Positions 1 to 45,573 of a stretch of 64,000 bases of DNA are shown here, piece by piece. Numbering within the stretch: the stretch's first letter is position 1; every line of letters begins with the position of its first letter. The stretch is taken from assembly GCF_947498095.1 (NCBI RefSeq), contig NZ_CANMJE010000005.1, positions 62,001 to 126,000 on the forward strand. The letters are read 5' to 3'. The position numbers and the translations under genes are program-made. A model generated the notes under the pieces. The model had not been told where the DNA came from. It saw only the letters and a list, made by a program, of their open reading frames with translations, and made no database searches. This stretch comes from an uncultured Shimia sp. (GTDB taxonomy: Bacteria > Pseudomonadota > Alphaproteobacteria > Rhodobacterales > Rhodobacteraceae).

Positions 1-338
<338 letters not shown>

Positions 339-415
339 CTAGGTAATGCTGCCTTGACCTTTTCGCCACCCCCTTTTGCGACCCAAGGCGTGTCACCTTG
401 CGACAAAATTAAAAT

Positions 416-430
416 GTTCTATATTTGTTC
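416..430 (+). promoter_or_regulatory. Alphaproteobacterial LexA (SOS) box GTTC-N7-GTTC
   Basis: GTTCtatatttGTTC at 416-430, exact match to the known alphaproteobacterial LexA consensus. Confidence 0.75.
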
Positions 431-432
431 TC

Positions 433-792
433 ATGCACACTCATCCCCCATATGACCTCTGGCCGCGCCCGCCCTCGGCCATCACAGCCACGCAATTGGC
501 AATTCCGCCCAATGGCGCACGGGTCACGGTGGCGGGGCTGGTGATTCTGCGCCAACGGCCGGGCACGGCAAAGGGCGTGATCTTCCTCACACTTGAAGAT
601 GAAACCGGGGTGGTGAATATCGTCGTATGGCGCAAGATGTACGAACATTTTCGTCGCGCGGTAATCGCGGGGCGCCTGTTGCGCATTACCGGACCGATCC
701 AACGCGAAAACAATGTGACCCATGTGATCGCCGAGAAGATCGAGGATATTTCCGAAATGCTCGACATGCTTCTGCTCCCGGCAGACGCATAA
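433..792 (+). CDS. Stand-alone OB-fold protein, remnant of the C-terminus of error-prone polymerase DnaE2
   Basis: VTVAGLVILRQRPGTAKGVIFLTLEDETGVVNIVVWRKMYEHFRRAVIAGRLLRITGPIQRENNVTHVIAEKI resembles the DnaE2 C-terminal OB fold; no polymerase domains upstream. Confidence 0.75.
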   Translation: MHTHPPYDLWPRPPSAITATQLAIPPNGARVTVAGLVILRQRPGTAKGVIFLTLEDETGVVNIVVWRKMYEHFRRAVIAGRLLRITGPIQRENNVTHVIAEKIEDISEMLDMLLLPADA

Positions 793-23894: not shown

Positions 23895-25202
23895 ATGAAC
23901 ATGCAAACCGGCAACGTGATGGCCCCTCCGGCCCCAAAACGTTTGGAAGAAATGCAACTGCCCGTCGTGATGATGCGCGACATCCTGTTGAAAACCATGT
24001 TCCGCAAGAACGTGGATATGGTGTCTGACGTGGCGGCGGCCGTCTGTTTGCCAACGGCGGTGACTCAACAACTGATCGACATGGCCCGCGAACAACGGTT
24101 TCTCGAGGCCACTGGCACACTCAACGCCAACAGCGGCAACGAGATGGGATATCAATTGACCGATGCCGGCAAAGCCCGTGCCTTGGACGCCCTCTCACAA
24201 TCCGAATATTTTGGCCCTATGCCAGTACCGCTTGATGTGTATCGCGAGCAAATCAAACGCCAATCTATCCGCAACATTCAGGTAACCCGCAAACAATTGA
24301 CCGATGCGATGGGTCATCTGATCTTGCCTGACAGCCTGTTGGACCACCTCGGCCCAGCTGTCGGCTCAGGGCGTTCCATTCTGATGTACGGACCACCCGG
24401 CAACGGTAAATCTTCGATCTCGAACGGCATCCGCGATGCGATGGGTGACAAGATTTACGTACCGCGCGCCATCGAATACGCCGGACAGGTCATCACAGTG
24501 TATGATCCGATCGTTCACTCTAAGGCCGAAGGTGATGAACAGGATCCCAGCTCTCTGCGGCGCGTTGCCCGGTTCGACACCCGCTATGTGAAATGTGACC
24601 GCCCAACCGTGATCACAGGTGGTGAACTCTCGCTGAGCATGCTGGACCTTGTCTACAACCCAACGGCGCGGACCTATCAGGCGCCGCTGCAGCTGAAATC
24701 TACTGGCGGCATCTTTATCGTCGACGACCTTGGTCGTCAGGAAGAACCCCCGCAAGCGCTGGTGAACCGCTGGATCGTTCCGCTGGAAGAAAGCAAAGAC
24801 ATTCTGGCGCTGCAATCGGGTGAAAAGTTCGAAGTGCCGTTTGATACGCTGGTGATCTTCTCAACCAACTTCCACCCCAATGAAATCTTTGACCAGGCTG
24901 CGTTGCGTCGGATCTTCTACAAGATCAAAATCGATGGACCAAATCAGGAAAACTTCCTCAAGATTTTTGCATTGGTCGCCAAGAAAAAAGGCATGCCACT
25001 GGACGAGTCTGCCCTGATCCATCTCTTGAAAAAGAAATACCCGACGATCGAAAATGTCTATGCCAACTATCAGCCCGTCTTTTTGATCGACCAGATGATT
25101 TCCATCTGCGAATTCGAAGGGATTCCCTATCAGATGACACCCGACCTGATAGACCGCGCTTGGGCGAACATGTTCGTCAAGGACGAGCATATCGTGAATT
25201 GA
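23895..25202 (+). CDS. AAA+ ATPase with N-terminal winged-helix-like region, tad-linked, function unknown
   Basis: Walker A GPPGNGKSS, Walker B GIFIVDDLGRQ; co-directional with tad genes; start chosen at MNMQTGNVMAPP. Confidence 0.85.
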   Translation: MNMQTGNVMAPPAPKRLEEMQLPVVMMRDILLKTMFRKNVDMVSDVAAAVCLPTAVTQQLIDMAREQRFLEATGTLNANSGNEMGYQLTDAGKARALDALSQSEYFGPMPVPLDVYREQIKRQSIRNIQVTRKQLTDAMGHLILPDSLLDHLGPAVGSGRSILMYGPPGNGKSSISNGIRDAMGDKIYVPRAIEYAGQVITVYDPIVHSKAEGDEQDPSSLRRVARFDTRYVKCDRPTVITGGELSLSMLDLVYNPTARTYQAPLQLKSTGGIFIVDDLGRQEEPPQALVNRWIVPLEESKDILALQSGEKFEVPFDTLVIFSTNFHPNEIFDQAALRRIFYKIKIDGPNQENFLKIFALVAKKKGMPLDESALIHLLKKKYPTIENVYANYQPVFLIDQMISICEFEGIPYQMTPDLIDRAWANMFVKDEHIVN

Positions 25203-25206
25203 TCCC

Positions 25207-25234
25207 GTAGGTCGGACAAAATTGTCCGACCTAC
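25207..25234. repeat. 28-bp extragenic palindrome
   Basis: GTAGGTCGGACAA-AA-TTGTCCGACCTAC, 13-bp perfect arms. Confidence 0.85.
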
Positions 25235-25298
25235 CCACATATCCTTTCCAGTCCGATCCCCCACAATTAAGCTCCAAAAAAGCTGTTGGAGTTTTGCT

Positions 25299-26114
25299 AT
25301 GGAATTGACGGGGATTGGCGTTGCTGGATGCGGCCGCATGGGCGGTCCGATGCTGGCCTCATTGATCCAGGCGGGGTTTGACGCAATCGGCTACGATGTG
25401 CGCCCCGCAAAGGATTTCAGTGAAATGGCGCCTAAGATGCGTTCCAGACAGGGGTTTTCAGAAAGCTTGCGCATTCTGATCTCGGTTGTGCGGGATATTT
25501 CACAAACCGAAGACGTACTCTTTGGGGCGCAAGCTTTTGCAAACGCGCCCAACCTGCAAACGATCATCCTGTCCTCTACGCTGTCACCGCGATACGTCCG
25601 GGATCTGAGGGCAAGAATCCCCGCACACATCACCATGATCGACGCCCCGATGTCCGGTGCTGCCATTGCCGCGCAAGAGGCACGATTGTCCTTCATGCTG
25701 GGTGGCAAAGACGCCGTTCTTAATGCCCACCAACCGCTGTTTGACGCCATGGGTGCACACTTTCATCGCATGGGCGGCTATGGCGCCGGCATGCAGGCCA
25801 AGGTTCTGAACAACATGTTGGCGGCATCGCACACAGCCATGACGCGCCTTGTCTTGGAATGGGCAGATCGGGCTAATCTCGATGAAGCAAAACTGTTGAA
25901 CCTGATCCACACGTCATCAGGACAAAACTGGCTCGCAACCGGATTTGACGACATCGAATTCTCTCGAGATGGCTGGCAGGATGACAACACAATCGGCATT
26001 TTGACAAAGGATGTCGCCAGCGCATTGGATGCAGCGCCCGAAGGTGCCGACACCAGCCTGCCCGAAGTGGTTCAGGCGACCATTCGGGCTTTGCGGCAAA
26101 GACCGCAGCGCTGA
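25299..26114 (+). CDS. NAD(P)-dependent oxidoreductase, 3-hydroxyisobutyrate dehydrogenase-like
   Basis: GVAGCGRMGGPMLASLIQAG; DAPMSGA; AGMQAKVLNN. Confidence 0.85.
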   Translation: MELTGIGVAGCGRMGGPMLASLIQAGFDAIGYDVRPAKDFSEMAPKMRSRQGFSESLRILISVVRDISQTEDVLFGAQAFANAPNLQTIILSSTLSPRYVRDLRARIPAHITMIDAPMSGAAIAAQEARLSFMLGGKDAVLNAHQPLFDAMGAHFHRMGGYGAGMQAKVLNNMLAASHTAMTRLVLEWADRANLDEAKLLNLIHTSSGQNWLATGFDDIEFSRDGWQDDNTIGILTKDVASALDAAPEGADTSLPEVVQATIRALRQRPQR

Positions 26115-44688: not shown

Positions 44689-45573
44689 ATGCGAGCGATG
44701 ATCCCCTTTCCCGAAATGTCACCCGAGATCTTCTCGGTTTCTGTGTTTGGCTTTGAATTGGCCCTGCGTTGGTATGCGCTGGCCTATATCGTCGGCATTC
44801 TCATTGGCTGGCGTATCGTGGTCGCAGCGCTAAAGCGACCGACACTTTGGGGATCGAACGGCGCCCCCATGACCCCGCGCCAATGCGAAGACCTTCTGAC
44901 GTGGGTCATTGTCGGGGTAATCTTTGGGGGGCGTATCGGATATGTTTTGTTTTATCAGCCGGGCGAATACCTCTCACGCCCCGGCGACATCCTGAAAATC
45001 TGGCAAGGCGGAATGTCATTTCACGGTGGTCTGATCGGCGTCATCGTGGCGGCATGGTTGGTCGCCCGCAAAGAGAACCTGCCGAAACTGCGAACCGCGG
45101 ATGCAATGGCACTGGGAATCTGGCCCGGGCTACTACTGGGGCGGATTGCGAATTTCATCAATGCCGAGCTTTGGGGGCGACAGACCGACCTGCCATGGGG
45201 CGTGGTGTTTCCGGGTTACAACGCCCAAAACTGTGGACAGGCTGCCGCTGAGTTCTGCGCCCGTCACCCTTCGCAACTCTATGAGGCGCTGCTGGAAGGC
45301 GTGGTTCTGGGCGGCGTCTTGCTTTGGGCGGCTTGGAAACGCGACGCACTGAAGTTCCCGGGCCGTTCCGCCGGCATTTTCTTTGCCGGCTATGGTCTGG
45401 CCCGCTTTGTGGTTGAGTTTGTTCGCCAGCCAGACGCCCAGTTTGTGACCGAAGGCAACCCGCTGGGCCTTGCATGGCATGTCAGCGGATATGGCTTGAC
45501 GATGGGGCAGCTGTTGTCGCTGCCGATGATTGTCGCCGGTGCTTGGCTGATCTCGAGGTCACGCCGTGTCTGA
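44689..45573 (+). CDS. lgt: Prolipoprotein diacylglyceryl transferase
   Basis: [33 protein letters not shown]. Confidence 0.95.

Follow-up and report, generated by a model that had tools for sequence, protein, structure and literature searches.

Why should a gene that codes for nothing but the terminal OB-fold domain of an SOS polymerase stand behind a LexA-type box at a site where no polymerase is encoded? This question is raised by a short ORF near the start of the DNA analysed here, a 64,000-nucleotide stretch of an uncultured Shimia sp. genome (the window). A sequence-only reading had attributed it to an internal deletion of an imuA-imuB-dnaE2 cassette at this site, leaving either a decaying scar or a domesticated SOS-inducible OB-fold protein. 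Comparative sequence evidence instead makes it quite likely that the OB domain of DnaE2 was split off as a gene of its own, and that its product rejoins the remainder of the polymerase in trans as a subunit.

A stand-alone OB domain of DnaE2

The ORF opens at the ATG at 433 and ends at 792, as the sequence-only reading had it, and its identification there as the C-terminal OB domain of DnaE2 is borne out by profile searches: it belongs to the PRK05672/NF004225 error-prone polymerase family, aligning to about positions 943-1038 of the 1047 in the profile with an E-value (9.9e-32) far ahead of that of the best DnaE1 model (1.3e-8). The Pfam tRNA_anti-codon OB-fold model (PF01336) also matches the ORF (E 2e-13). 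AlphaFold2 predicts a confident OB barrel for the encoded protein (mean pLDDT 87.8), with strands at residues 30-38, 49-56, 59-66, 82-92, 95-99 and 102-105, and Foldseek comparisons with the PDB return OB proteins (Stn1, RPA and class II tRNA synthetases). In a complete DnaE2 a single chain holds PHP, the polymerase core, (HhH)2 and the OB domain; the window ORF encodes the OB domain alone. Stand-alone OB proteins have the core motifs of cis OB domains, the sequences being about 60-70% identical to the nearest of these. Two features set them apart: 1) a conserved WPRPP motif ahead of the barrel (Table 1), absent from the linkers of three full-length DnaE2 proteins compared; and 2) the absence, from the window protein, of the SRDFH-type C-terminal tail (...HPR..FPSRDFH) of full-length DnaE2.

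The divergent 2Fe-2S ferredoxin gene on the other side of the promoter is a syntenic neighbour to which we ascribe no part in function. It is found beside the OB gene in all stand-alone loci read except L086 and L114, and the linkage extends to four lineages with small, AT-rich genomes, where identity is 41-46%. Hence what occupies this ferredoxin-linked site in many genera is a stand-alone OB gene and not a cassette scar. Downstream of the OB gene, on the same strand (855-1415), lies a gene for a peptidoglycan-binding-domain protein with a lipoprotein-like start; it is often conserved beside the OB gene and has no obvious SOS link.

Table 1. Features of the OB-gene locus in the window.
Feature	Position	Strand	Remarks
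2Fe-2S ferredoxin gene, divergent	3..308	-	PF00111; runs off the window
-35 element TTGCGA	398..403	+	TTG at -18 from box start in 65/106 orthologous promoters
LexA box GTTCTATATTTGTTC	416..430	+	exact GTTC-N7-GTTC; 2 bp before ATG; upstream of 42/47 and 77/80 orthologues
-10 element TATATT	420..425	+	inside LexA-box spacer; 16 bp from -35; spacer conserved
Stand-alone DnaE2 OB-domain gene	433..792	+	119 aa; NF004225 and PF01336 matches
WPRPP motif	460..474	+	residues 10-14, before the OB barrel; near-invariant in 51 orthologues
OB barrel	523..750	+	residues 31-106; PF01336 match over these; AlphaFold2 strands

A probable LexA operator overlapping the promoter

The perfect box ahead of the gene follows the published alphaproteobacterial LexA motif GTTC-N7-GTTC (PMC3323433), and the recA and lexA genes of the same genome carry exact boxes of this type. 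In the window alone it would pass for a chance match, as two exact occurrences are observed against 2.55 expected in shuffles, and the box by itself is not significant; the other occurrence (45354-45368, GTTCCCGGGCCGTTC) has a GC-rich spacer and is probably fortuitous. Chance is nevertheless ruled out by conserved position across orthologues: among 47 orthologues from family genomes, 42 have a box at most 120 bp upstream, where 0.0016 would be expected per locus, and in a set of GTDB contigs that overlaps the first in part the same holds for 77 of 80 loci. We thus take the box, already recognized in the sequence-only reading, as real because of its position and conservation.

An alignment of 106 distinct orthologous promoters, anchored on the box, reveals a common plan: TTGC at -18 to -15 from the box start (T92, T66/G33, G88 and C66 at the successive positions), followed by GTTC-TAT[A/T]TTT-GTTC and then the start codon. 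Fixed positions of the spacer are 83-95% conserved, and a distance of 17 nt separates box start and start codon in 81 of the 106 promoters, so that the ATG is usually 2 bp behind the box. Since the spacer doubles as a -10 element 16 bp from the -35 element, the LexA operator would overlap the -10, and transcription is expected to begin with the ATG or right next to it, pointing to leaderless translation. By virtue of this conserved operator at its promoter, the window OB gene is a predicted member of the LexA (SOS) regulon.

The rest of the polymerase lies elsewhere in the genome

The absence of a polymerase near the OB gene holds for the window, but one is encoded elsewhere in the same genome. 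The DnaE2 gene at another locus (G000:C9, about 171,176-174,100) codes for a 974-residue protein in which PHP, polymerase, finger and HHH_6 domains are present but OB is absent; it matches NF004225 from 6 to 939 and then stops, its C-terminal tail reading ...TLRSHPVALLRHLLTPDKPDPNLRHG (also given as ...LTLRSHPVALLRHLLTPDKPDPNLRHG) up to the stop codon. The body and the OB protein, whose match starts at 943, are thus complementary on the profile, with three positions between them. A second, weaker match in this genome (G000:C7) is the replicative DnaE1. With complementary halves at two loci nothing was deleted: the coding sequence of a single enzyme is divided between two sites; a cassette deletion at the window site does not agree with an intact DnaE2 body at another locus that lacks precisely the OB domain. 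The bodies of six further loci (L069, L072, L074, L080, L083 and L084) share a tail of the form HPR..PLPIP.TRANPD or FTRGNPD, which resembles the HPR..FPSRDFH tail of full-length DnaE2.

Distribution of the two halves

We surveyed 298 genomes of the family, assigning classes by hand from several profile and sequence searches. The window ORF has a match in 258 of them and DnaE2 a strong one in 257. A DnaE2 body ending near profile position 938-940 is present in 128 and a stand-alone OB gene in 130. Named relatives of the gene come from Shimia, Ruegeria, Roseovarius, Marivita, Tropicibacter, Sagittula, Tateyamaria and Gemmobacter, among others. The truncated body and the separate gene occur together in 124 genomes, 119 have full-length DnaE2 only, and few are mixed; the complementary halves thus reside in the same genomes. 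Fisher's test for this co-occurrence gives p 5e-63 when genomes are treated as independent, which they are not. From this co-occurrence we infer that the partner of the OB protein is the DnaE2 body.

The exceptions are few. Four genomes have a body with no OB gene found (G044, G064, G163 and G181), and six have an OB gene but no intact split body, namely G051, G238, G295 and three whose broken assemblies contain fragments of a body. In two of the 298 the OB gene accompanies a full-length DnaE2 without an intact split body. G238 is of this kind, with split-type body fragments (L099, C11:322372-323414) alongside a full-length DnaE2 and the stand-alone OB gene. G051, a 7-contig, 100% complete genome, has an OB gene (L102, C4:2083564-2083893) with LexA box and ferredoxin neighbour; in it DnaE2 was not found, only DnaE1. 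G051 and the four body-only genomes may reflect assembly gaps, recent losses, or halves able to work apart. In a further genome, G035, both forms coexist: the largest contig carries the split pair, and a contig of 126,304 bp carries a full-length cassette. A class-wide survey of 385 genomes yielded 173 with a strong DnaE2 match, a few of these being family members. Among the matches listed, those from outside the family run to about profile position 1024-1047, and we found no convincing split outside the family, the remainder checked being full-length, in-frame neighbours or partial, with G644, G515, G523 and G341 left aside.

Other components of the mutasome

The remaining parts of the system likewise carry LexA boxes. 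Close upstream of 38 truncated bodies an exact box is present in 13 and a box with one mismatch in 23, against 2.4 expected. ImuB was present in all 43 genomes tested, and an exact box precedes imuB in 8/8 loci read from other genomes; in the window's own genome imuB and dnaE2 lie side by side, diverging from a single box, GTTCTCTTTTTGTTC. In most split genomes tested the dnaE2 body and imuB lie far apart, and a contiguous imuA-imuB-dnaE2 operon is not what one finds. An ImuA-like protein of about 200-217 aa is encoded at yet another locus, with an exact box in 6/6 loci read. Its identity as ImuA is best regarded as likely because the matches are weak (E 1e-7 to 5e-11 in the four proteins scanned) and fall below the curated cut-off. 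The window's genome encodes a 205-residue version (L230 1098-1715, minus strand; G000:C2, about 25097-25714), whose box, GTTCTCTTTTTGTTC, is identical to that shared by imuB and dnaE2 on a different contig. Given the separate boxes at the OB gene, the bodies, imuB and the ImuA-like gene, the mutasome is scattered over separate SOS loci.

Origin and selection

In a tree of body sequences the 38 truncated bodies fall into one group with support 100, which also holds G295, and in a subset tree with out-of-family roots the 18 sampled members of the split group form a 100/100 clade. The OB domain alone is too short for a resolved tree. Because the same ferredoxin-linked site recurs nearly everywhere and the bodies group together, the data support a single relocation of the OB gene, kept since; the shared site itself suggests that the ferredoxin-linked gene arose once. 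Since two split genomes (G195 and G084) and a full-length one (G279) branch just below the main split clade, the history may have comprised either one fission followed by re-fusion or several fissions. In G195 (L086 2127-6870) some 1 kb, occupied by one gene in reverse orientation, separates the body from the OB gene, each with its own LexA box, and the OB protein retains the ancestral HPR...SRDFH tail (...HPRDQAKRLFPSRDFH); it possibly represents a fission intermediate. G295 was considered as an undivided ancestor inside the split clade and rejected, as its full-length DnaE2 (L100, C88) is a mosaic whose first 700 residues are nearest to split bodies and whose last 400, including the OB domain, are like other DnaE2; possibly recombination restored a cis OB domain, or the protein is an assembly error or chimera. 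A plasmid origin of the stand-alone gene was also set aside, since most plasmid sequences among the matches listed are annotated as error-prone polymerases of full length (the top-ranking one shares about 62% identity across the entire query), as was a phage origin, with one weak phage record.

The OB gene evolves as a gene under purifying selection would: there are no internal stops in 122 sequences, and dN/dS is 0.00-0.09 in the five closest pairs, with a median of 0.24 over more distant, partly saturated pairs. These values, far below 1, argue against decay. OB and body distances correlate with r 0.93 (0.71 without the AT-rich rows), and the correlation persists once that with the ferredoxin next door is allowed for (partial r 0.78, falling to 0.61 when the AT-rich rows are left out; partial Mantel p 0.001), though part of this covariation could be explained by shared regulation and general rate effects.

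A polymerase probably reassembled in trans

The OB domain of Pol III alpha contacts the single-stranded template and influences processivity. We propose that its counterpart here is supplied separately, as follows: 1) the polymerase body, comprising PHP, palm/thumb/fingers and (HhH)2 and ending just after the latter, is encoded at its own locus. 2) LexA is predicted to repress both the body gene and the OB gene, and upon DNA damage both proteins would be made. 3) ImuB would bring the body to the beta clamp as usual. 4) The OB protein would dock on (HhH)2 at its free end and so give back to the enzyme the domain for gripping ssDNA that is part of the same chain in other DnaE2, with the WPRPP motif, at a guess, as the docking element. 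The division of labour between steps 3 and 4 is suggested by models of ImuA-ImuB-DnaE2 in which the DnaE2-ImuB contacts lie in PHP and (HhH)2 (PMC12926913), both kept by the body. Fission and co-regulation are backed by sequence, and from these would follow the physical re-assembly, with binding in trans, ssDNA contact and a role of the OB protein in translesion synthesis. The missing SRDFH-type tail of the OB protein counts against this picture, as do the genomes in which one half was found without the other. More speculatively, and with considerable doubt on our part, the detached domain could be a reversible, separately dosed subunit that sets the residence time of the error-prone polymerase on DNA, perhaps being lent to other polymerases, in a mutasome built from individually LexA-timed parts.

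An alternative that we consider unlikely is that the OB domain took up an independent SOS job, for instance binding ssDNA as a small protein or competing with or assisting DnaE1, while the body works without it. The additional N-terminal motif, the genomes that keep one half where the other was not found, and the existence of DnaE3 variants without OB, described in an earlier survey (PMC3919608), would fit such a role; the near-exclusive occurrence of the OB gene in genomes with an OB-less DnaE2, the core motifs shared with cis OB domains, the covariation with the body, and the presence of a full-length DnaE2 in G238, where the split body is degraded, argue against it. The idea of a domesticated SOS-inducible OB protein came close, in that an SOS-type gene does stand behind a LexA-type box, but the evidence favours a split polymerase over an unrelated new job. 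The scar of a deleted cassette, which a DnaE2-like tail beside a LexA box in a window without polymerase would suggest, is highly improbable in view of the wide occurrence of uninterrupted, selectively constrained orthologues with the same site and promoter and of the otherwise intact DnaE2 elsewhere. That the halves are joined by a split intein, as in the cyanobacterial DnaE likewise encoded as a Pol III alpha-type protein in two genes, can practically be discounted, because the body ends 12 residues past its LLTP motif and the about 30 residues before the OB barrel are the linker itself, leaving no room for intein halves, and because other bodies have short or variable tails and other OB proteins likewise short or variable N-termini.

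Relation to known systems

The split DnaE2 thus differs from the full-length enzyme (ImuC), with which it has in common the LexA-type box and co-occurrence with ImuB, in that the OB domain following (HhH)2 in one chain is here the product of a second gene, at a second locus, each with its own LexA box. The imuA-imuB-dnaE2 cassette, as on plasmid pDSHI03 of Dinoroseobacter shibae, places the same components under LexA in an operon, whereas in most split genomes read they occupy separate boxed loci. Unlike the cyanobacterial DnaE, the enzyme has no intein, the break falls between (HhH)2 and OB, and an SOS rather than a replicative polymerase is divided. A 2026 survey of bacterial polymerases distinguishes 11 mutasome types and describes DnaE2X systems in which a mutasome protein is likewise in separately encoded domains (iPolY plus ImuB-C); the protein so divided is ImuB, not the polymerase as in the present case. 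The main text of that survey does not contain the terms "OB domain" or "OB-fold" (PMC12926913). Several DnaE2 without an OB domain, likewise truncated after (HhH)2, are noted by Timinskas et al. 2013 (PMC3919608), in the available part of which we found no mention of a separate OB gene. In the open-licence literature we found no report of a split DnaE2 or of a DnaE2 with separate OB, and hence no earlier description of the two-gene arrangement.

Thus, a DnaE2 whose end piece is encoded under its own predicted damage-controlled promoter is conserved in many of these bacteria, and that piece is probably a working part of the enzyme. This would add to the known mutasomes an architecture comprising a non-intein, two-gene C-family polymerase under scattered LexA control, in marine bacteria that are abundant and include tractable strains. 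As the OB domain here has a gene of its own, which can be removed or switched on independently, its role in an SOS polymerase, hard to address in other species, becomes directly testable. The arrangement also offers an explanation for OB-less DnaE2: in the Roseobacter-type group the domain would have been moved, not lost.
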